The notes under the pieces are model-generated. The model was not told the origin of the DNA and did not search any database. It saw only the letters and a list, made by a program, of their open reading frames with translations. DNA of 64,000 nt. Origin: Elioraea thermophila (ex Habib et al. 2022). GTDB lineage: Bacteria; Pseudomonadota; Alphaproteobacteria; Acetobacterales; Acetobacteraceae. Shown piece after piece: positions 1 through 23,330 of this stretch (the stretch's first letter is position 1; each line of letters begins with the position of its first letter). A program made the translations under genes and the position numbers. The stretch lies in assembly GCF_003336755.1 (NCBI RefSeq), contig NZ_QMDI01000002.1:1116001-1180000 (forward strand). The letters are read 5' to 3'.

Positions 1-165
1 AGACGATGCCAAGCGCCTCGGCCTCTCGCAGCACGCGCAGCCAATCGGACGTGGTCAGCGCGTCCCGTCGCGTCGTCCAGTCGAGCGGATTGGAACAACG
101 GGGCGACGGAGCGGGCATCGGTAGGTGAGCTCCGCAACGACCGTATAGGGGCGTGGCACGGCCAT
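1..165 (-). pseudogene. pqqE: PqqE, 5' end, frameshifted (runs off window)
   Basis: PqqE is the radical-SAM enzyme that joins Glu and Tyr of PqqA in PQQ synthesis. The start codon shares one base with the pqqD stop (TGATG). The first residues (PYTVVAELTYRCPL) match the family and include the first cysteine of the CxxxCxxC cluster motif. The frame then shifts: read straight on, it stops at 55-57 after 36 codons. One base out of frame the expected sequence resumes (RCSNPLDW, then LREAEALGIV) up to the window edge. The middle cysteine is not encoded in either frame (Arg or Ser instead). That means at least two changes, so a genuine defect is more likely than one miscalled base. Only about 55 codons are visible. 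Confidence 0.75.
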
Positions 166-443
166 CACTTGGCCCCGATCAGACCACGGGCCAGCAGGCG
201 ATCGAGAAAGGACCCGATATCGGCGGCGGCGGCGACGGCGGCCGCGTCACATCCATATCGTCGCGCAAGCAGCTGCGTGATCTCGGCGAAGGTGCGGGTC
301 CCTTCGCAGAGAGCGAGGGTGGCCGCTGCCGTCGGGTTCAACTTGAGCCCCGCTTCGGAGTAGAGCAGCAGCGTCTCGCCCGTCAGCCGGTCAGGACGCA
401 ACCGCGCATGCGGCACGAGCTGCGGTTTCGCGTCGGGCGCCAT
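165..443 (-). CDS. pqqD: PqqD, PqqA-binding chaperone
   Basis: PqqD is a small winged-helix-like protein that binds the PqqA peptide and presents it to PqqE. The ATG at 443 gives 92 residues, the usual size. It lies 4 nt after the end of the pqqC frame and overlaps the pqqE start. Family features seen are P-x-ARLRPDRLTGE near the start, LLYSEAGLKLN in the first half and the C-terminal FLDRLLARGLI helix. An upstream ATG at 506 would add 21 residues overlapping pqqC and is unlikely. The reading frame is intact, unlike its neighbours pqqC and pqqE. Confidence 0.88.
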   Translation of the reverse strand: MAPDAKPQLVPHARLRPDRLTGETLLLYSEAGLKLNPTAAATLALCEGTRTFAEITQLLARRYGCDAAAVAAAADIGSFLDRLLARGLIGAK

Positions 444-447
444 GGTT

Positions 448-1181
448 TCAGGCGGCGCGTGGCGCCGCCGCAGGTGCCGTTGCGGCCTCGATGCAATCGA
501 GCACATGCCACAGGATCCCCGTCTTGCGGACCAAAGCCGCGACGCAAGCTGCCTGCTTGGCGCAGGTATCGGCGTGCCGGACGACGAAGGCGATGGCCTC
601 GGCGCTGTCCACCCTGGCTTGCACCACGCGATTGCGAAAATAGTGATCGTCGCCGGATCGACTCACGGGTAGTGCGTTTCCCAAGCGTTGATCCGCTTCG
701 TCATGATGTCGGGCGAGAAGAAGTCGGTCAGCGACGAGGCGACCGCCTCCAGCAGGAAGCGTTCACGCACCAGCGTGACGTGGTGGTCGCAGGCGAAGCG
801 CACGCCAGGCAAGACGTCGACGCAGGAGCGCACCCGCTCGACATCGAGACCCACGCCGGCGGCAAGTCTGAGCCAGAGCGCAAGCCCACCCTCGCCGTCT
901 CTTTCGCCGTCATGTTCGCGAATGCGGCGGACCCACATGCGCCGGAAGGCAGGATCGTCGGACTTGGAGAGGATGATCGCATCCTTGATCGGGATGCGGG
1001 TCTGACAATAGTACCGGTTGCAAACCAATCCTTGGATCTCCTCGCGGGAGATCCGGCCGGCGTGCATGCGCCGATGGAACGGATGATGGTCATGATCGCG
1101 AGCGGCCCCCTCGCGGCGCGGCCAATCGATGAACTCCTGTTCAGGCAACGGGGGGCGCAGCGGATCGATCGGCTCGTTCAC
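448..1181 (-). pseudogene. pqqC: PqqC, pyrroloquinoline-quinone synthase, frameshifted
   Basis: PqqC performs the final ring closure and oxidation of PQQ. The GTG at 1181 overlaps the pqqB stop by 4 bases (GTGA). The first part (to 663, 172 residues) has the family motifs NRYYCQTRIPIKDA, the HDG motif and LPGVRFACDHH, and ends ...WETHYP-stop. The remainder (GDDHYFRNRV ... VRKTGILWHVLDCIEA) lies in the next frame, down to 448. Adding one G at the junction (TGG instead of TG) restores an uninterrupted protein. The cut falls just after HYP, so the first product lacks the Tyr and Arg of the YFRNR segment, corresponding to active-site residues in the family, and the last helices. The downstream piece could start at a GTG overlapping the stop (GTGA), but two separate halves are not known to work. 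Confidence 0.8.
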
Positions 1182-4168: not shown

Positions 4169-5158
4169 ATGTTCCGTTCGCTGCTCGCGTCCGTCGTCGC
4201 CGCTGCGACCTTGGCCGGCGCGTTGCCGGCCGATGCCCAAACCCGGCTCCGCTTCGCGCATGTGTACGAGGTGAGCGAACCCTATCACACGGAGGCGCTC
4301 TGGGCAGCGGAGGAGATCGCGAAGCGGACGAACAATCGTTGGCGAATCGAGGTGTTTCCCGCCTCGGCACTCGGCAACGAGCCGGCGATCAATGAGGGAC
4401 TCACCCTCGGCACGATCGACATGATCTACACCGGCACCGCCTTCGCCGGCAGCCGCTTTCGCCCCATCGCCATCAGCAACGCGCCTTACGTCTTCCGCGA
4501 CTTCGACCACTGGCTCGCCTACCGCGACAGCGACCTGCTGAAGGAATTGATGGCCGGCTACGATCGCGCAACCGGCCACAAGGTGCTCGCGATGACGTAC
4601 TACGGCGCGCGCCACGTCACCGCGAACCGGCCGATCCACCGCCCCGAGGACATGCGCGGGATGAAGCTGCGCGTCCCGCAGGCCCCGCTGTACCTCATGT
4701 TCGCTCGCTCCGTCGGTGCCAACGCCACGCCCATTGCGTTCGCGGAAGTGTATCTCGCCCTGCAGAACGGCACGGTGGACGGACAGGAGAATCCCCTGCC
4801 CACCATCCAGGCCAAGAAGTTCTACGAGGTGCAGAGCCACATCATCCTGACCGGGCATATCACCGAGTCGCTGCTGACGATCGCCTCGGGCAACTTGTGG
4901 CGACGCCTCTCGGCGGCGGATCGCGCCGTGTTCGAGGAGGTGTGGCGGGAAGCGGCCAATCGCGCGACCTACGCCATTCGCATCGCGGAAGAAACGTTGC
5001 CGGCCTGGTTCGAACAGCAGGGGAAGACCGTCATTCGCCCCGATCGTGCCGCCTTCCGCGCCGCCGCCCTGCCGCTGCACAACGACCCGCAGGCGGGTGC
5101 TGGCTGGACGCGCGAACAATACGACCGCCTGCAGGCGCTCGGCGCGCGGACGAACTGA
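4169..5158 (+). CDS. TRAP transporter periplasmic solute-binding protein (DctP family)
   Basis: The extracytoplasmic receptor of a tripartite ATP-independent periplasmic transporter. ATG at 4169 follows a GGGAGG ribosome site and gives 329 residues. A signal peptide covers about residues 1-23 (LLASVVAAATLAGALPADAQ). DctP signatures are RLRFAHVYEVSEPYHTEALWAAEEI, LTLGTIDMIYTG, GMKLRVPQAPLY with the Arg that usually binds the ligand carboxylate, and the TVDGQENPL motif. The ligand is most likely a sugar acid, from the neighbouring dehydratases. Its membrane partners dctQM are 1.2 kb downstream, beyond an inverted gene. Confidence 0.92.
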   Translation: MFRSLLASVVAAATLAGALPADAQTRLRFAHVYEVSEPYHTEALWAAEEIAKRTNNRWRIEVFPASALGNEPAINEGLTLGTIDMIYTGTAFAGSRFRPIAISNAPYVFRDFDHWLAYRDSDLLKELMAGYDRATGHKVLAMTYYGARHVTANRPIHRPEDMRGMKLRVPQAPLYLMFARSVGANATPIAFAEVYLALQNGTVDGQENPLPTIQAKKFYEVQSHIILTGHITESLLTIASGNLWRRLSAADRAVFEEVWREAANRATYAIRIAEETLPAWFEQQGKTVIRPDRAAFRAAALPLHNDPQAGAGWTREQYDRLQALGARTN

Positions 5159-5174
5159 GGTAGCCTCCGGCCCT

Positions 5175-5200
5175 GGGGCGGCGGCCTTGCTCGCCGCCCC
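5175..5200. terminator. Hairpin between convergent dctP and enolase-family genes
   Basis: Perfect 8-bp arms GGGGCGGC / GCCGCCCC with a 10-nt loop occupy the gap between the two convergent stop codons. No T-run is present; a bidirectional terminator role is inferred from position. Confidence 0.45.
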
Positions 5201-6313
5201 TCACGTCACGACGATCGGCGAGAAGCGCTGATGGCGTTCGATGGCGCGCTGATCCCAGATGATGCCGTGCCCCGGCCGGTCGGGCGCGGATGCCGTGCCG
5301 TGCGAAATCTCGATCCGGCTTTCCGTCACGTCGTCGAGCTGCGGAATGTGCTCGAGCCAGGCGCTGTTCGGCACCGCGCAGCAGAGCGGCAGGTGCAGCT
5401 CCATCAGGTAGTGCGGGCAGACCGCGACGTTGAACGCCTCCGCCATGTGCGCGACCTTGAGCCACGGCGTGATGCCGCCGATGCGCGCGACATCGACCTG
5501 CACGATGCGGCAGGCGCCGCGGGCGAGGTAGTCGCGGAACTGCGCTGGGTGGTAGAGGCTTTCGCCGACCGCGATCGGGATCGTGGTCGCCGCGGCAAGG
5601 CGCGCGTGGCCCTCGACGTCCTCGGCCGGCAGCGGCTCCTCGTACCAGGCAAGATCAAGCCCCGCCGCCTCGAAGGCGCCGGCGCGACGGATCGCCTCCG
5701 CCACGTTGAAGCCCTGGTTGGCGTCGGTCATCAGCTCGACGTCGGGACCAAGTGCACGCCGCACGGCTTCGAGGCGGGCGAGATCCTCGCGCAAGCCGGG
5801 TTTGCCGACCTTCACCTTCACACCGCGAAAGCCGCGCGCCGCGGCGGCGCTGCACGCGTCCACCAGAGCGCCGGTTTCGAGATGCAGCCACCCGCTCTCG
5901 GTATCGTAGACGCGGATCGAGTCCTTCGCCCCCCCGGCGAGGCGCGCCAGCGAAAGACCAAGCCGGCGCCCGCGCAGGTCCCACAGCGCGACGTCGATGG
6001 CAGCGAGGGCGAGCGCGGTCAGCGGACCGACGGACAGGGCGTGGGTGTGCCAGAACAGGTCTTGCCAAATCGCCTCGATCGCCTCCGCCTCGCGACCGAT
6101 CAGCCGCGGCGCGAGATGGTCGCGCAGCAGCGCGATGACCGAACTGCCACCCGTGCCGATGGTGTAGCTGTAGCCCGTGCCCTCCGCACCCTCCGCATCG
6201 CACAGGCGCACGAAGGGCGTTTCCTGCACCGTGAAGGCCTGGATCGCATCGCTGCGCGCCACGCGCGGGCGAAGGTCGATCAGACCGATCTCGACGCGCA
6301 CGATCCTCGGCAC
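5201..6313 (-). CDS. Enolase-superfamily sugar-acid dehydratase (mandelate racemase subgroup)
   Basis: Acid-sugar dehydratase/racemase of the enolase superfamily, about 370 residues from the GTG at 6313. The MLE/MR N-terminal capping domain is followed by a barrel carrying GVKVKVGK (catalytic KxK), LMTDANQ, WYEEPL and VGESLY (three metal ligands), then PHYLMELHL with the general-acid His. Full length and all catalytic residues present. An alternative ATG at 6388 would overlap the dctQ start codon on the other strand and add 25 unmatched residues. It is flanked by TRAP transporter genes, so it probably processes the imported acid; galactarate/talarate-like substrates are only a guess. Confidence 0.88.
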   Translation of the reverse strand: MPRIVRVEIGLIDLRPRVARSDAIQAFTVQETPFVRLCDAEGAEGTGYSYTIGTGGSSVIALLRDHLAPRLIGREAEAIEAIWQDLFWHTHALSVGPLTALALAAIDVALWDLRGRRLGLSLARLAGGAKDSIRVYDTESGWLHLETGALVDACSAAAARGFRGVKVKVGKPGLREDLARLEAVRRALGPDVELMTDANQGFNVAEAIRRAGAFEAAGLDLAWYEEPLPAEDVEGHARLAAATTIPIAVGESLYHPAQFRDYLARGACRIVQVDVARIGGITPWLKVAHMAEAFNVAVCPHYLMELHLPLCCAVPNSAWLEHIPQLDDVTESRIEISHGTASAPDRPGHGIIWDQRAIERHQRFSPIVVT

Positions 6314-6386
6314 GAGAGAGGCTCCATCCTGGGCATGACGCTTCCGGAGAGTGCAGTCTAGGCCGGGTGGCGACGAGGAAAAGGGC

Positions 6387-6965
6387 ATGACGACAGACGC
6401 GGGGGATACGCTTGCGGCGGAGGCCGGCTACGAGACCTTGCTGCACGAGCAGGAGGAGCGCGAACGGCACGAACCGCCGGGCGACTGGCGAATCGAAGAC
6501 TGGCTGGCCTTCGCGATCTTCTGGGTGCTCGCCGCGGTCGTCTTCCTGCAGTTCTTCACCCGCTACGTGCTGAACGACTCGATCGCCTGGACCGAGGAGA
6601 TCGCACGCTACCTGTTGATCGGTACCACCTTCGTCGGCGCGGCGATGGCGGCGCGCAAGGGCAGCCACATCGCGCTCGAGATCCTTGCCTTCGCCTTGCC
6701 GCCAGCCGCCCGGCGCTGGTTTCGCTTCTGTCTTGATCTCGTCGCGACCGCCTTCTTCGCCATCGCCGCTTGGTTGTGCTTCGAGATCGCACAGGCGATG
6801 TGGTACCAACCGATGGTGGTGATCAATGTGCCGCTCGGCATCGTTTATTACGTCGCCACGTTCGGTCTCGCACTCACCACGGTGCGGTTCGCTTGGCATG
6901 CGGTCGCGGCATTCCGTGCGCCGCAGCCGGAGGCCATCGATCCTTCGCTGTCCGCCCGCACATGA
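6387..6965 (+). CDS. TRAP transporter small membrane subunit (DctQ family)
   Basis: 192 residues with four membrane segments and the DctQ signature RYVLNDSIAWTEEIARYLLIGTTF. It starts at ATG 6387 after a GAGGAAAAGG ribosome site and overlaps dctM by ATGA. A charged, glutamate-rich N-terminal tail of about 35 residues precedes the first membrane segment. It joins DctM as the permease for the DctP receptor encoded upstream. The promoter must lie inside or just before the 5' end of the inverted enolase-family gene. Confidence 0.9.
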   Translation: MTTDAGDTLAAEAGYETLLHEQEERERHEPPGDWRIEDWLAFAIFWVLAAVVFLQFFTRYVLNDSIAWTEEIARYLLIGTTFVGAAMAARKGSHIALEILAFALPPAARRWFRFCLDLVATAFFAIAAWLCFEIAQAMWYQPMVVINVPLGIVYYVATFGLALTTVRFAWHAVAAFRAPQPEAIDPSLSART

Positions 6966-8239
6966 CGGCCCTTCTCTTTGGCACCTTCCTAGGTGGCCTG
7001 CTGATCGGGCTTCCCGTGGCGGTGGCGCTCGGCGGTGCGTCTCTCCTCTACGTCGCGCTGACCGGGGATCTGCCGCTGCTCGTCGTCGTGCATCGCATGG
7101 TGAACGGCATCGACAGTTTCCCTCTTCTTGCCGTGCCGTTTTTCATCATGGCCGGCAACCTGATGAACAGCGCCGGCATCACCGACCGCATCTTCAACTT
7201 CGCGCTCGCCGCGGTCGGCTGGGCGCGTGGGGGCCTCGGTCACGTCAACGTCTTCGCCTCGATCATCTTCGCCGGCATGTCCGGCACCGCAGTGGCCGAT
7301 GCCGGCGGCCTCGGCACGATCGAAATCAAGGCGATGCGCGACAACGGCTATCCCGACAAGTTCTCGATCGGCATCACCGCGGCCTCCACCGTCATCGGCC
7401 CGATCATTCCGCCCTCGTTGCCTCTGGTCATCTACGGCGTGATGGCAAACGCGTCCGTGGGCCAGCTCTTCGCCGCCGGTATCCTGCCCGGGCTCCTGAT
7501 TGCGCTCGTGCTGTTCGCTTGGGTTGCGGTGGTCGCACGGCTGAATCATTTCCCGCGCGACGCGGCCTTCCGCTTGGGCAGGCTCGCGCGCGCGGCCTGG
7601 CGCGGCACGCTCCCCCTGCTCACGCCGGTGATCCTGATCGGCGGCATGAAGTCCGGCCTGTTCACGCCGACCGAGGCCGCCATCGCCGCCACCGTCTACG
7701 CGTTGTTCCTTGGTCTCGTCGCCTATCGCACGCTCGGATGGAACCGCCTCGTGCGTGTCTCGATGGAGACGATCGAAACCACCGCGGTCGTGCTCCTGAT
7801 CGTTGCGGGTGCCTCCATCTTCGGCTGGCTGATCACCACCACGCGGGTGAGCGAGGAGATCGCCGAGGCGGTGCTTGCAGTCACCAGCGACCGCGTGCTC
7901 GTCCTCCTGGTCGTCAACGCGCTCCTGCTGGTCGTCGGCTGCTTCCTCGAGACCATCGCCGCCATCACCATCCTGGTGCCCGTGCTGCTGCCGCTGGTGA
8001 CGAAGGTCGGCGTCGATCCCGTCCATTTCGGTATCATCATGACGCTGAACCTGGTCATCGGGCTGCTGACCCCGCCGGTGGGCATGGTGATCTACATCCT
8101 GGCGCGCATTTCGGGGCGCAGCTTCGAGTTCGTCACGCGCGCGATCGCGCCGTTCCTGGTGCCGCTGTTCGCTGCGCTCCTGATCGTCACCTACTGGCCG
8201 GGGTTCGTGCTCTATCTGCCGACCGTGTTCTATCGGTGA
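6962..8239 (+). CDS. TRAP transporter large membrane subunit (DctM family)
   Basis: The 425-residue sodium-coupled transport subunit with about a dozen membrane helices. The ATG at 6962 overlaps the dctQ stop (ATGA). Family motifs include LLAVPFFIMAGNLMNSAGITDRIF, GMSGTAVADAGGLGTIEIKAM and IGPIIPPSLPLVIYGV. Frames starting further upstream run through dctQ and are not real. It ends convergent to the hybrid sensor kinase 150 bp away. Confidence 0.93.
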   Translation: MTALLFGTFLGGLLIGLPVAVALGGASLLYVALTGDLPLLVVVHRMVNGIDSFPLLAVPFFIMAGNLMNSAGITDRIFNFALAAVGWARGGLGHVNVFASIIFAGMSGTAVADAGGLGTIEIKAMRDNGYPDKFSIGITAASTVIGPIIPPSLPLVIYGVMANASVGQLFAAGILPGLLIALVLFAWVAVVARLNHFPRDAAFRLGRLARAAWRGTLPLLTPVILIGGMKSGLFTPTEAAIAATVYALFLGLVAYRTLGWNRLVRVSMETIETTAVVLLIVAGASIFGWLITTTRVSEEIAEAVLAVTSDRVLVLLVVNALLLVVGCFLETIAAITILVPVLLPLVTKVGVDPVHFGIIMTLNLVIGLLTPPVGMVIYILARISGRSFEFVTRAIAPFLVPLFAALLIVTYWPGFVLYLPTVFYR

Positions 8240-8388
8240 GCGGTCAAGGGCCCCGCGACACCCCCGAACGCCGCTGCGACGCCGCCGACCCGAAAGCGAC
8301 GATCCCGCGACGGCTGTGGGATACGATCCGCAAGGAGCGGAACGGTGCAGCCGAGCCGACCGCGACCTCGCGCATCGACGGTCCGGCG

Positions 8389-10989
8389 CTATCGTCGCGC
8401 CTCGCAGAGGGGTTCCGTCTCAACGTCGCGTGCCACGACCGTTCCCTGTCGCATCACCGCGGCCATCGCGGCAAGCAGCGTGTCGCGTCGGAACGGCTTC
8501 TGCACCACCGTCACCATGTCTAGGGCGGCGATCCTGGCCTCGAAATCGAGACCGGGGTCGCCGGTGACGAACACGATTGGAACCTTCGGCAGGGATCGCC
8601 GGATCCTGCGGGCAAGATCGAGGCCGTTCGCTCCGTGCCCCAACTTGATGTCGAGCACCAGGAGGTCCGGCGAGGAGACCGCCACCCGGGCCAAAGCCTG
8701 GTCCTCGTCCAGGGCGCCGAAGACCTGCGCCCCCTGAGCCTCGAGAAGTCGTTGCAGGCCGAGCAGGGCCTGAGGGTCGTCCTCCACCACCAGCACCGTG
8801 CGGTCGCGGAGCGACAGCGAAGCGTCCGTGCCGACCGCGGTGCCGTTCGGCGCGGCGGGCTCCGTGCCGTCGACCAGCGGAAGGTAGATCGTCACCCGTG
8901 TGCCCGCGCCCGGCGTGCTCTCGATCTCCAGCGTGCCGCCCGATTGGCGGGCAAAGCCATAAGCCGACGGCAGGCCGAGCCCGCTGCCGCGATCGCCCTT
9001 GGTGGTGAAGAACGGCTCAAGCACGTGCTCGAGCACTTCGGGCGGCATCCCGGGACCGTCGTCCTCCACCACCAGCGCCGCATAGGGCCCGGGGACGAGG
9101 CCCAGCCGCCGCGCCGCCGGCCCGTCGAGGGAGACGCGGCGGCAGGAGAGCACGATCCGGCCGTCCCTCTGGTCGCCGATCGCATCACGGGCATTGAGGA
9201 CGAGGTTGGTCACCGCACTCTCCAGCCCGCCCTCATCGGCACGGCCGCGGCCGAGACTGCCGAGTTCCGTCACCAGCGCGATCCGGTTCGGCATTGCTTT
9301 CACGAGCAGGGGCACGAGCTTCTCTAGCGTCGCCGTGAGGTCGATCGTGCGAGGCGCGTCGATGCTGCGCTGCGCGAAGGCGAGCAGTGGGCGGGTGAGG
9401 TCGGCCCCCCTCTGGGCGGCACCCAGGGCGGCATCGACGAGCTCCCGCTGCTCGCGCGACAGCGGCGTCTCGGCGAGCACCTCGAGGTGCAGTGCCACGA
9501 TCGCCAACAGGTTGTTGGTGTCGTGGGCGACCGACCCGGCGAGCCGGCCGAGGGCGGAGAGCCGCTCCGCCCGCACCGCCGCCTCGCGGGCGCGCATTTC
9601 CTCCGTCACATCGGCAAGCACGAGGACGTAGCGCTCGTGCGTCTCGAGGCGCGCCGACAAGGGCGCCCCAACACAGCGCGCCCAGAACGGAGCGCCGTCC
9701 ATCTTGCGCAACTGGAGCACCTCATCGCAGGGCTGGGCGTCCCGGATCGCAGCGCGGAGTCGGGTATGAGGCTGTGGCTCAGGCTGAGCCTCGTGATCGA
9801 CGAGCAGCGTGAAGATGGCCCGGCCCCCGAAGTCGTCGTCGCGCAGCCCAGTCAGGCCGAAGAAGGCCCGGTTGGCCCAAGATAGCCGGCCTTCGCCGTC
9901 GGTCACCGCGATCGCCGCCCCCATCTCGCGCAGCGTGGCGGCGACGCGTTCCGCCTCCTCCCGCGCGCGACGGATCTCGACGAGGCGCTGGGAGTCGCGC
10001 CGGAACTGCCGGGAGGTCGCCGCCGCGCCGAACAGGAGTCCGCCCGCAAGGACCCCGGCGAAGGCGAAGACGAGCAGCTCCCTGGTTCGGCCGAGACCCA
10101 ACAGCTCCTCGCGCCCGGTAGCGACCAGGGCGAAGACCGGGCGGCTGCCGACTCGATGGAAGGCGATAATCCGGTCGGCGCCGTCCGTCTGCACCGGGCC
10201 GGCGACCACACCGAGGTCGGCGCGCTGGAACCCTTGCACGGCAGGTCCGGAAAAGCGCCGGCCGAGGATGCGGGGGTCGAAGGGCAGGCGCGCGATGAAG
10301 CTGCCGTCCTCGTACATCAGCGCGACGGCACCGTTGAGCGGCAGCTGCGCGGAGGCGAGAACGCCGAGCAGCAGGGGCAGCGGCACGGCGGAGACAGCGA
10401 CTGCGGCGTCGTGCGGGTTGGGGGCAAGTCGCTGGCTCAGCGGCAGCATGTAGGTGCCCAGTCGTTCGCTGTAACGAACCGGCCCCCACGTGACCTCGCC
10501 AGGCTCCGCCTTCAGCGCCATGGCGACTTCGCTACGATCGGAGAACGACTGGCCGAGGACAGGGATCGGCGCCATGCCCTGGCCATCGCTGGCGACGAAC
10601 ACCACGACGGCCGGTTCTTCGCTCTCCGCCACACCCTCGCCCGGGGCACGGCGCACGCCGACGATCGCCGCGTGCTCCGGCACCATCCAGGCGAGGGCGG
10701 CTGAGGCCTGGACCAGCCGGCGCTCCGCCTCGGCGAGCACGCTTTCCGCATTGGCGGCGAGGGTGGCGGTGAGGCGGAGCAGGGTTTCGCCCACCGCGGC
10801 TTCGGTCCGGGCGCGCTCGAGCGAGACGAAGTACCAGGCGCTGAGGAGGATGCTCGTCGCGACCGTGACGGCCCCCGCCCAGAGGAGAGCGATCAGACGA
10901 CGAGGCCTGGTCTCCAAACTCCGTGCGGTCGCGCCTTCGGTCGACGGCGGGTCAAAGGTCGGCTTGGAAGCTATGCGTCCGACATCCAA
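8389..10989 (-). CDS. Hybrid sensor histidine kinase (periplasmic sensor, PAS, kinase, receiver)
   Basis: An 866-residue membrane sensor kinase. Order: short cytoplasmic tail; membrane segment about 32-56; a large periplasmic sensor to about 300 (double-Cache-like in layout); second membrane segment about 305-326; PAS about 350-470; phospho-acceptor domain with His489 in GSVAHDTNNLLAI; ATPase domain with the N box NLVLNARDAIG, DDGPGMP and GSGLGLPSA; receiver about 731-850 with phospho-Asp781 (LLVLDIKLG) and Lys832. The histidine motif (SVAHDxNNLL) is of the HWE/NtrB-like type seen in hybrid kinases. No response regulator or output gene is adjacent, so partner and stimulus are unknown. It converges with the TRAP operon. 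Confidence 0.9.
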   Translation of the reverse strand: MDVGRIASKPTFDPPSTEGATARSLETRPRRLIALLWAGAVTVATSILLSAWYFVSLERARTEAAVGETLLRLTATLAANAESVLAEAERRLVQASAALAWMVPEHAAIVGVRRAPGEGVAESEEPAVVVFVASDGQGMAPIPVLGQSFSDRSEVAMALKAEPGEVTWGPVRYSERLGTYMLPLSQRLAPNPHDAAVAVSAVPLPLLLGVLASAQLPLNGAVALMYEDGSFIARLPFDPRILGRRFSGPAVQGFQRADLGVVAGPVQTDGADRIIAFHRVGSRPVFALVATGREELLGLGRTRELLVFAFAGVLAGGLLFGAAATSRQFRRDSQRLVEIRRAREEAERVAATLREMGAAIAVTDGEGRLSWANRAFFGLTGLRDDDFGGRAIFTLLVDHEAQPEPQPHTRLRAAIRDAQPCDEVLQLRKMDGAPFWARCVGAPLSARLETHERYVLVLADVTEEMRAREAAVRAERLSALGRLAGSVAHDTNNLLAIVALHLEVLAETPLSREQRELVDAALGAAQRGADLTRPLLAFAQRSIDAPRTIDLTATLEKLVPLLVKAMPNRIALVTELGSLGRGRADEGGLESAVTNLVLNARDAIGDQRDGRIVLSCRRVSLDGPAARRLGLVPGPYAALVVEDDGPGMPPEVLEHVLEPFFTTKGDRGSGLGLPSAYGFARQSGGTLEIESTPGAGTRVTIYLPLVDGTEPAAPNGTAVGTDASLSLRDRTVLVVEDDPQALLGLQRLLEAQGAQVFGALDEDQALARVAVSSPDLLVLDIKLGHGANGLDLARRIRRSLPKVPIVFVTGDPGLDFEARIAALDMVTVVQKPFRRDTLLAAMAAVMRQGTVVARDVETEPLCEARR

Positions 10990-21193: not shown

Positions 21194-23158
21194 TCACCAG
21201 CGGGCGCGCAGGCCCGTCAGCGCCCAGGCTCCCGGAACGACGTAGGCGTTCGCCGGTTCGTAGCGGCTGCCGGTGATGTTGCGCCCGACCGCGAACCATT
21301 CGAGCACCTCCGTCACCTGCCAGCGCGCGGAGACGTTCACCAGAGTGCCGCCCTGGTTGAAGCCCCGTCCGGCGAAGGCGCCGCTGTCGCGGTAGAGGAT
21401 GTCGGCCGCCGGGCCGAACAGGAGCACGTCGGTCGAGAGACTGAACCGCGGATTGGCGCGCAGGGTCGCGCCCACGCTGCCCTGATGGCGGGGGCGCCTT
21501 TGCAGCTGCAGCCCGGTGTTCCCGTCCTGCGCCACCGTCCACGTGTAGGTGGCGCGCAGGTCGAGCCAGTCGGCCGGAGAGAGGTCGAAGGCCGTCTCGA
21601 CGCCGTCGATCTCGGCCCGACCGACATTGATGCGGGTGGTGAAGAACGCATCATCCGCGATCAGGTCGCGGATGTTCTGCCGGAAATAGGTGACGGAGAA
21701 GCGGCCCGGATGCGGCATGACGGCGGCGAGATCGACCGCCGCGCCCACCTCGCCGCCGCGTCCCTTCTCCGGCCTCAGGTTCGGGTTGCCGCGGAAGCCG
21801 AAGCTGCCCACGCCGAACAGGTCGAACAGCGTGGGAGCACGGAACGACGTCCCGTAGGCGGCGTGCAGCGACAGGGCTGCCTCGGGAACGGCGAGGACGC
21901 CGCCCACACGCCAAGTCGTGGTGTCGGCGAAGTCACGCGGCATCTCGTGACGGATGTTGCCGGTGAGGTCGAGGCGTCGGAACAGGCGGAACTGCGCGCC
22001 GAGATAGGCCGCATGGTTGCGCGTGCCGCGATCGACGTCCCGCGCGAAGGGGCCGAAGGGACCGTCGAAGCGCACCTTCACGTCGGTTCGGTCCTCGATC
22101 CGCTGCAGGCCGAAGGTGATCGCCGCATCGTCCACCGCGCCACCGTTCGGCAGACGCAACGTATTGTCCCATTGCCAGACGGTGCGGGTGCCGAGGTAGC
22201 GCGAGTCGTCGCTGCCGGAGAAGGGGAAGAGGTCGGGACGGTCACGAAACTGACGGTTGTCGCGCGACTGGCCGACGGCGAGGGCGGTGTCGAGCCAGCC
22301 GGGGATCACCGTGCCGGCGATGCCCGCCCGCCACATGCCGCTGCGGTTGCGCACCGTGTAGTTCGGGTCGTCCTGACCCGCCTGGTCGAGATCGGCCTTG
22401 CTCTCGCGCAGCCGGCCGAAGGCGAAGAGGCGGAAACGCTCGCCGAGCGCGGCGCCGAGATTGGCCGTGAGCGTGCCGATGCGCGCCCCGTCGCGCTCGC
22501 CGATGTTGGTGGCGAGGCGCGGGGGCTGGATGTTGAAGCCCTGGGTGGTGAGGCCGCTCGCGACGATTGCGTAGTCGAGCCCGCGCCACTCCCCGGCGAG
22601 GACGCCCGATGCGGCCGCGGTCGATTGCGTGCCGCCGGCGATCTCGCCGAGCGCGCTCACGGCGCGACCCGCCCCACGGCCGGAGCGGGTGATCACGTTC
22701 ACCACGCCGCCGATCGCGCCCGAGCCGTAGAGGCCGGACATCGGTCCGCGCACCACCTCGATGCGCTCGACATCGTCGAGCAGATCGTTGCCGAAGTCAA
22801 ACAAGCCCCCCGGGGCGGAGGGATCGTTGATCGGCATGCCGTCGCGCAGCACGAGGACGTGGCTGGAGTTCGTGCCCCGCATGAAAACGCTCGTCTGCTG
22901 GCCGATCGGGCCCAGCTGCACCGGGCGAAGCCCGGGCACGGCCGAAAGCGCATCGACGAGACTGCGATAGCCGCGCTCCTCGATCGCCTGCCGCGTGATC
23001 ACCGTGACACCGGCGGGCAGGCGCTCGATCGGCGTCGGCACCCTGGTCGCCGTCACCACCGTCTCGGGCAGGAGCCTGAGGCCGGGGGCTTCCGTCTGGG
23101 CAAGCGCGGGGAAGGCGATCGCGGCGGCGGCCGCGGCGGCAAGCAAGCGTGTGCGCAC
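21194..23158 (-). CDS. btuB: BtuB-like TonB-dependent outer-membrane cobalamin receptor
   Basis: A 654-residue gated beta-barrel. The GTG at 23158 has a good ribosome site (GAAGGAGAG) and opens a signal peptide (LLAAAAAAAIAFPALAQ). The TonB box ETVVTATR follows, then the plug domain (YRSLVDALSAVPGLRPV, SSHVLVLRDGMPINDP, IEVVRGPMSGLYGSGAIGGVVNVIT) and a barrel ending in ...ALTGLRARW with the terminal aromatic residue. A cobalamin riboswitch precedes it, which makes B12 compounds the likely ligand. A start at 23209 would read back into the leader and is rejected. Confidence 0.92.
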   Translation of the reverse strand: MRTRLLAAAAAAAIAFPALAQTEAPGLRLLPETVVTATRVPTPIERLPAGVTVITRQAIEERGYRSLVDALSAVPGLRPVQLGPIGQQTSVFMRGTNSSHVLVLRDGMPINDPSAPGGLFDFGNDLLDDVERIEVVRGPMSGLYGSGAIGGVVNVITRSGRGAGRAVSALGEIAGGTQSTAAASGVLAGEWRGLDYAIVASGLTTQGFNIQPPRLATNIGERDGARIGTLTANLGAALGERFRLFAFGRLRESKADLDQAGQDDPNYTVRNRSGMWRAGIAGTVIPGWLDTALAVGQSRDNRQFRDRPDLFPFSGSDDSRYLGTRTVWQWDNTLRLPNGGAVDDAAITFGLQRIEDRTDVKVRFDGPFGPFARDVDRGTRNHAAYLGAQFRLFRRLDLTGNIRHEMPRDFADTTTWRVGGVLAVPEAALSLHAAYGTSFRAPTLFDLFGVGSFGFRGNPNLRPEKGRGGEVGAAVDLAAVMPHPGRFSVTYFRQNIRDLIADDAFFTTRINVGRAEIDGVETAFDLSPADWLDLRATYTWTVAQDGNTGLQLQRRPRHQGSVGATLRANPRFSLSTDVLLFGPAADILYRDSGAFAGRGFNQGGTLVNVSARWQVTEVLEWFAVGRNITGSRYEPANAYVVPGAWALTGLRARW

Positions 23159-23166
23159 GGTCTCTC

Positions 23167-23205
23167 CTTCGGTCTCGATCGACGGCCGAAGCCGCCAGAC
23201 CGAAG
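23167..23205 (-). promoter_or_regulatory. Hairpin masking the btuB ribosome-binding site
   Basis: Perfect 8-bp arms CTTCGGTC (23205-23198 on the minus strand) and GACCGAAG (23174-23167). The second arm overlaps the start of the ribosome site GAAGGAGAG. It is the likely output switch of the cobalamin riboswitch, acting on translation. The loop contains a smaller GGCGGCTTCGGCCG stem. Confidence 0.5.
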
Positions 23206-23330
23206 GCACGGCGCACGCAGATCACGCTTCACGCTCGCCCCCTCCGCGAACGGCCACGACCAACACGCCGCGTGCGGAGGGCTTATGCCCGACCGTCGCT
23301 CCGGTTCACCCCGCCCGGCAGCGAAGCGGC

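Follow-up and report, generated by a model that had tools for sequence, protein, structure and literature searches.

A pseudogenised pqqABCDE operon and probable loss of PQQ synthesis in Elioraea thermophila

The left edge of the window, by which we mean the whole 64,000-nucleotide stretch analysed here (positions 1,116,001 to 1,180,000 of NZ_QMDI01000002.1, Elioraea thermophila), very probably carries a pseudogenised pqqABCDE operon from an Elioraea lineage in which PQQ synthesis has been lost (probability roughly 0.93). Compared with intact orthologues, the operon bears several independent disabling lesions. The earlier note had already read the locus as a recent loss of PQQ synthesis and not as poor sequence. 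That the loss is recent and genuine is strongly supported: substitutions at invariant sites have produced both nonsense and missense changes, a deletion fused two genes and took the promoter, GC3 is low, control genes are clean, there is no second copy, and congeners either lack the operon or show an independent decay of it. The case is one of well-documented, ordinary pseudogenisation.

The five genes lie on the minus strand from position 2242 to beyond position 1, in the order A-B-C-D-E on one strand, as in a functional operon. pqqA (2147-2242) is an open frame for a precursor peptide of 31 aa with its ExxxY motif retained, and pqqB (1178-2095) is also open, scoring 370.6 bits against TIGR02108; its best named matches, 69-70% identical in protein sequence, are those of Elioraea sp. 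bin.267 (locus L043) and E. rosea PF-30 (L044), and by this similarity the genome falls in or near Elioraea (Elioraeaceae, Acetobacterales). The GTG start of the pqqC pseudogene (448-1181, start at 1181) overlaps the pqqB stop, as it does in relatives. pqqD (165-443) is open (TIGR03859, 47 bits), and the pqqE pseudogene, whose 5' part occupies positions 1-165, runs on outside the window to about C2:1115090. The operons of PF-30 and bin.267 share the gene order and the start/stop overlaps at about 72% DNA identity, but they are intact, whereas the promoter, pqqC and pqqE are destroyed here. The genome under study (G000; 3.03 Mb, 98.7% complete) holds a single pqqC/D/E locus; a second copy was considered and rejected, as a search of the rest of the genome returned no other pqqC, pqqD or pqqE.

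In pqqC, the L043 protein aligns with the window (tblastn) at 81% identity as far as ETHYP, where a TGA codon (663-665) stands in place of the tryptophan codon, TGG, of both L043 and L044. Beyond the TGA, VDPATIT continues in the same frame, and after a shift at about position 643 the alignment resumes one frame over with YFRNR (from 642) at 76% identity. The DNA of relatives reads TGG GTC GAT ... ATC ACC TAT TTC and that of the window TGA GTC GAT ... ATC AC TAT TTT, which places a 1-nt deletion at 642-644 relative to intact orthologues. pqqC thus carries two separate lesions, a TGG-to-TGA substitution and the loss of 1 nt some 20 nt further on. The gene had been described as needing one added base just after its HYP motif; the break in frame stands, but such a base would mask the nonsense codon and is not seen in relatives. 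No full-length PqqC frame exists, and both pieces score below the TIGR02111 cut-off.

The damage to pqqE falls within its radical-SAM motif, CxxxCxxC, as had been noticed earlier. The first cysteine is retained (117-115), the middle one is replaced by arginine (CGC for TGC, 105-103), and the third (TGT, 97-95) lies one frame over, following a 1-nt deletion within 98-102. Relatives read TGC CCC TAC TGC across this site, so the middle cysteine was lost through a T-to-C substitution adjoining the 1-nt loss. This residue aligns with Cys32 of M. extorquens PqqE, a protein of solved structure (6C8V), and the C32S variant of that enzyme no longer cleaves SAM (PMC5715301). A third lesion, CAG to TAG, lies outside the window at C2:1115225-1115227, directly after HGGCRC and before the last SPASM cysteine. 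Thus, neither the CX3CX2C motif nor a full SPASM domain is preserved. Without PqqE radical-SAM activity and without PqqC, PQQ would not be made.

Upstream of pqqA, the intact L043 locus has an intergenic region with GGGAGAACACG before the ATG and, beyond it, a divergent gene for a GSDH-family sugar dehydrogenase (5985-7424, 479 aa), whose protein has the glucose/aldose sugar dehydrogenases 7CDY and 2G8S as its best PDB relatives; of the two named operons, it is L043 that is likened to the window in having this gene. In the window, a junction at positions 2243-2244 marks the absence of about 1.4 kb of this arrangement, namely the intergenic region with its promoter and Shine-Dalgarno sequence and, next to it, the GSDH gene's 5' part. 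What is left of the GSDH gene (PF07995) is a plus-strand stub of its last 44 codons (2245-2376), with 85% DNA identity to L043 and the same stop. The pqqA ATG (2242-2240) lies within 2 nt of this opposite-strand stub; the start codon abuts the junction with no Shine-Dalgarno sequence upstream, and where relatives have GGGAG and the region upstream of it, the window has the 3' end of the GSDH gene in antisense. The comparison with L043 shows one deletion that took both the pqqA upstream region and most of the divergent gene. It affects all five pqq genes, would leave the operon with neither transcript nor translation start, and is a plausible first step in its decay. The earlier note, which listed two broken genes and called pqqA, pqqB and pqqD intact, was right about the two genes and about the three open frames, but it understated the damage, missing both the pqqE TAG and this deletion, with which the promoter and ribosome-binding site went. 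Those three genes are open but promoterless and, on the DNA evidence, probably non-functional. With their promoter lost, the whole operon is probably dead. The case is a warning to annotators that open frames for three of the pqq genes are no sign of PQQ production.

Relaxed constraint was evident in the two broken genes. PqqC deviates at 7 of 54 positions, and PqqE at 9 of 79 (a count that includes two lesion sites), that are invariant among 33-39 other Acetobacterales sequences, none of which deviates at more than two. Against 25 references, PqqB (1/37) and PqqD (1/7) are indistinguishable from functional proteins. The third-position GC of pqqB and pqqD is 0.79-0.80, whereas the sampled genes average 0.89 (s.d. 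0.04), and pqqB is among the lowest of them. Since both genes are open and show few deviations, the neutrality of the whole operon rests on GC3 and on the promoter deletion. Pairwise dN/dS values of the pqq genes against relatives, with the rows for pqqD and L124 left out because wrong frames had been partly paired in them, did not fall outside the controls; the measure is uninformative because most of the divergence predates the loss, as expected of a loss that is recent relative to the split from the relatives used. The open frames and the single PqqB deviation are what would be expected if the operon were still partly functional, with pqqA, pqqB and pqqD kept for another use or with readthrough or frameshifting rescuing pqqC and pqqE. 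We consider this extremely improbable, given the deleted pqqA promoter and ribosome-binding site, the eroded GC3 of pqqB and pqqD, the inability of recoding to restore the cysteine replaced by arginine in pqqE, and the lack of the operon in sister genomes. On the preferred reading of a pseudogenised operon, the open pqqA, pqqB and pqqD would be remains still to be eroded.

Comparison with close relatives places the loss within the genus. The operon is intact in four Elioraea relatives (G002, G006, L043 and L044). In an RpoB tree, G000 clusters with G003, G004 and G005 (97% identity), with G002 and G006 next and E. rosea and bin.267 outside. A search of G003, G004 and G005 for pqqC, pqqE and similar pqq DNA found none. 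These three genomes are 81-88% complete, and the chance that all three would miss the operon through incompleteness is about 0.3% if independent, so that incompleteness is an unlikely cause. In G001, the operon (L123, 7430-9480) is decayed: the 5' part of pqqB, the 3' part of pqqC and all of pqqD are lost, and pqqE has an internal deletion and two in-frame stops. It resembles that of G000, a member of the same genus, in retaining pqqA and in having pqqC and pqqE broken; unlike G000, it has lesions of its own, a broken pqqB and a sister with an intact operon, G002, its closest relative in an altronate-dehydratase tree. The decay in G001 is more advanced than in G000 and its lesions are independent. 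The lesions of G000 and the independent decay of G001 indicate that PQQ synthesis has been lost at least twice in Elioraea. A literature search, limited in its terms, found no paper on pqq loss. The locus offers a clear snapshot of the loss of a cofactor pathway in a genus whose class is held to produce PQQ: a single deletion took out both the promoter and a client dehydrogenase, the biosynthetic genes are breaking down, the sister genomes no longer have the operon, and another lineage has lost the pathway in parallel.

The loss of PQQ synthesis probably followed, or accompanied, the loss of PQQ-using enzymes. No candidate for a PQQ-dependent alcohol dehydrogenase or a membrane glucose dehydrogenase was found in G000; a PF13360/TIGR03075 match on contig C7 was rejected as BamB-like, judged by length and family. 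Genomes with an intact operon have 3-8 GSDH-family matches each and those without it 0-2, several of the latter incomplete. G000 retains one whole Asd/YliI-like GSDH gene at C6:518520 (C6:518454-519506; L157, 6454-7506), a potential PQQ user, and matches with similar scores occur in most Elioraea genomes, G003 included. The only TonB receptor found in G000 (window 21197-23209, minus strand) has BtuB as its closest match among solved structures (E = 1e-34), PqqU/YncD being much more distant (5e-11); no PqqU-type importer was found in this genome, in agreement with a published account in which Alphaproteobacteria largely lack PqqU (PMC12124388). G000 is like the non-producers of the E. coli type, which retain quinoprotein dehydrogenases and import PQQ via PqqU (PMC12124388), in lacking PQQ synthesis and keeping an Asd/YliI-like GSDH gene, but unlike them in having no PqqU candidate. 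PQQ operons have been reported to be common across the Acetobacteraceae even though PQQ enzymes are few (PMC10715153), a picture consistent with easy loss of the pathway. We tentatively suggest, as one possibility and not the likeliest, that Elioraea loses PQQ synthesis repeatedly and that the GSDH enzyme retained in G000, which has no PqqU-type importer, and in G003 either obtains PQQ otherwise or has stopped using it. The recurrence within one genus, together with a retained GSDH enzyme lacking an evident cofactor supply, is of modest interest and marks this enzyme as worth cofactor testing.

Assembly or base-calling errors could give the appearance of breaks in functional genes: several of the breaks are single-base indels, and neighbouring transporter genes carry indels too, as a poor local stretch of sequence might. 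However, indel read errors cannot yield two nonsense substitutions and a Cys-to-Arg change, nor do read errors account for the changes at invariant sites or the low GC3 of pqqB and pqqD. The many changes at otherwise invariant sites, the 1.4-kb deletion with its clean junction, the clean frames of homologous genes elsewhere and the sister genomes without the operon likewise speak against such errors, which we regard as very improbable. About 37 genes homologous to those of E. rosea, in sampled regions covering some 300 kb of G000, each occupy a single frame, which tells against poor sequence; one control homologue that seemed split proved to be two adjacent genes. A codon-model frame scan of 261 coding segments, weighed as support only, gave clear frame breaks only in two transporter genes at C2:1110024-1113862 (L002, 4024-7862), one of the AbgT family and one of the SLC13/CitMHS/TrkA-C type, which are broken by several frame changes; an intact relative of the latter lies in L187. 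The earlier claim that the remaining genes of the 64 kb are essentially free of such breaks holds within the window; the broken transporter genes sit 2-6 kb past its left end. The damaged pqq genes thus belong to a larger decaying stretch. A half-length gene for an AI-2E family transporter (L002, 8463-9062) adjoins the broken transporter genes.

Flags raised by the codon model in L134 were rejected as frame breaks, the frames being intact and low in GC3. On the minus strand of this locus (4400-8496; C6:154400-158496), a low-GC3 pair encodes a radical-SAM-like protein of 389 aa followed by a protein of 976 aa, possibly a laterally acquired peptide-modification locus.
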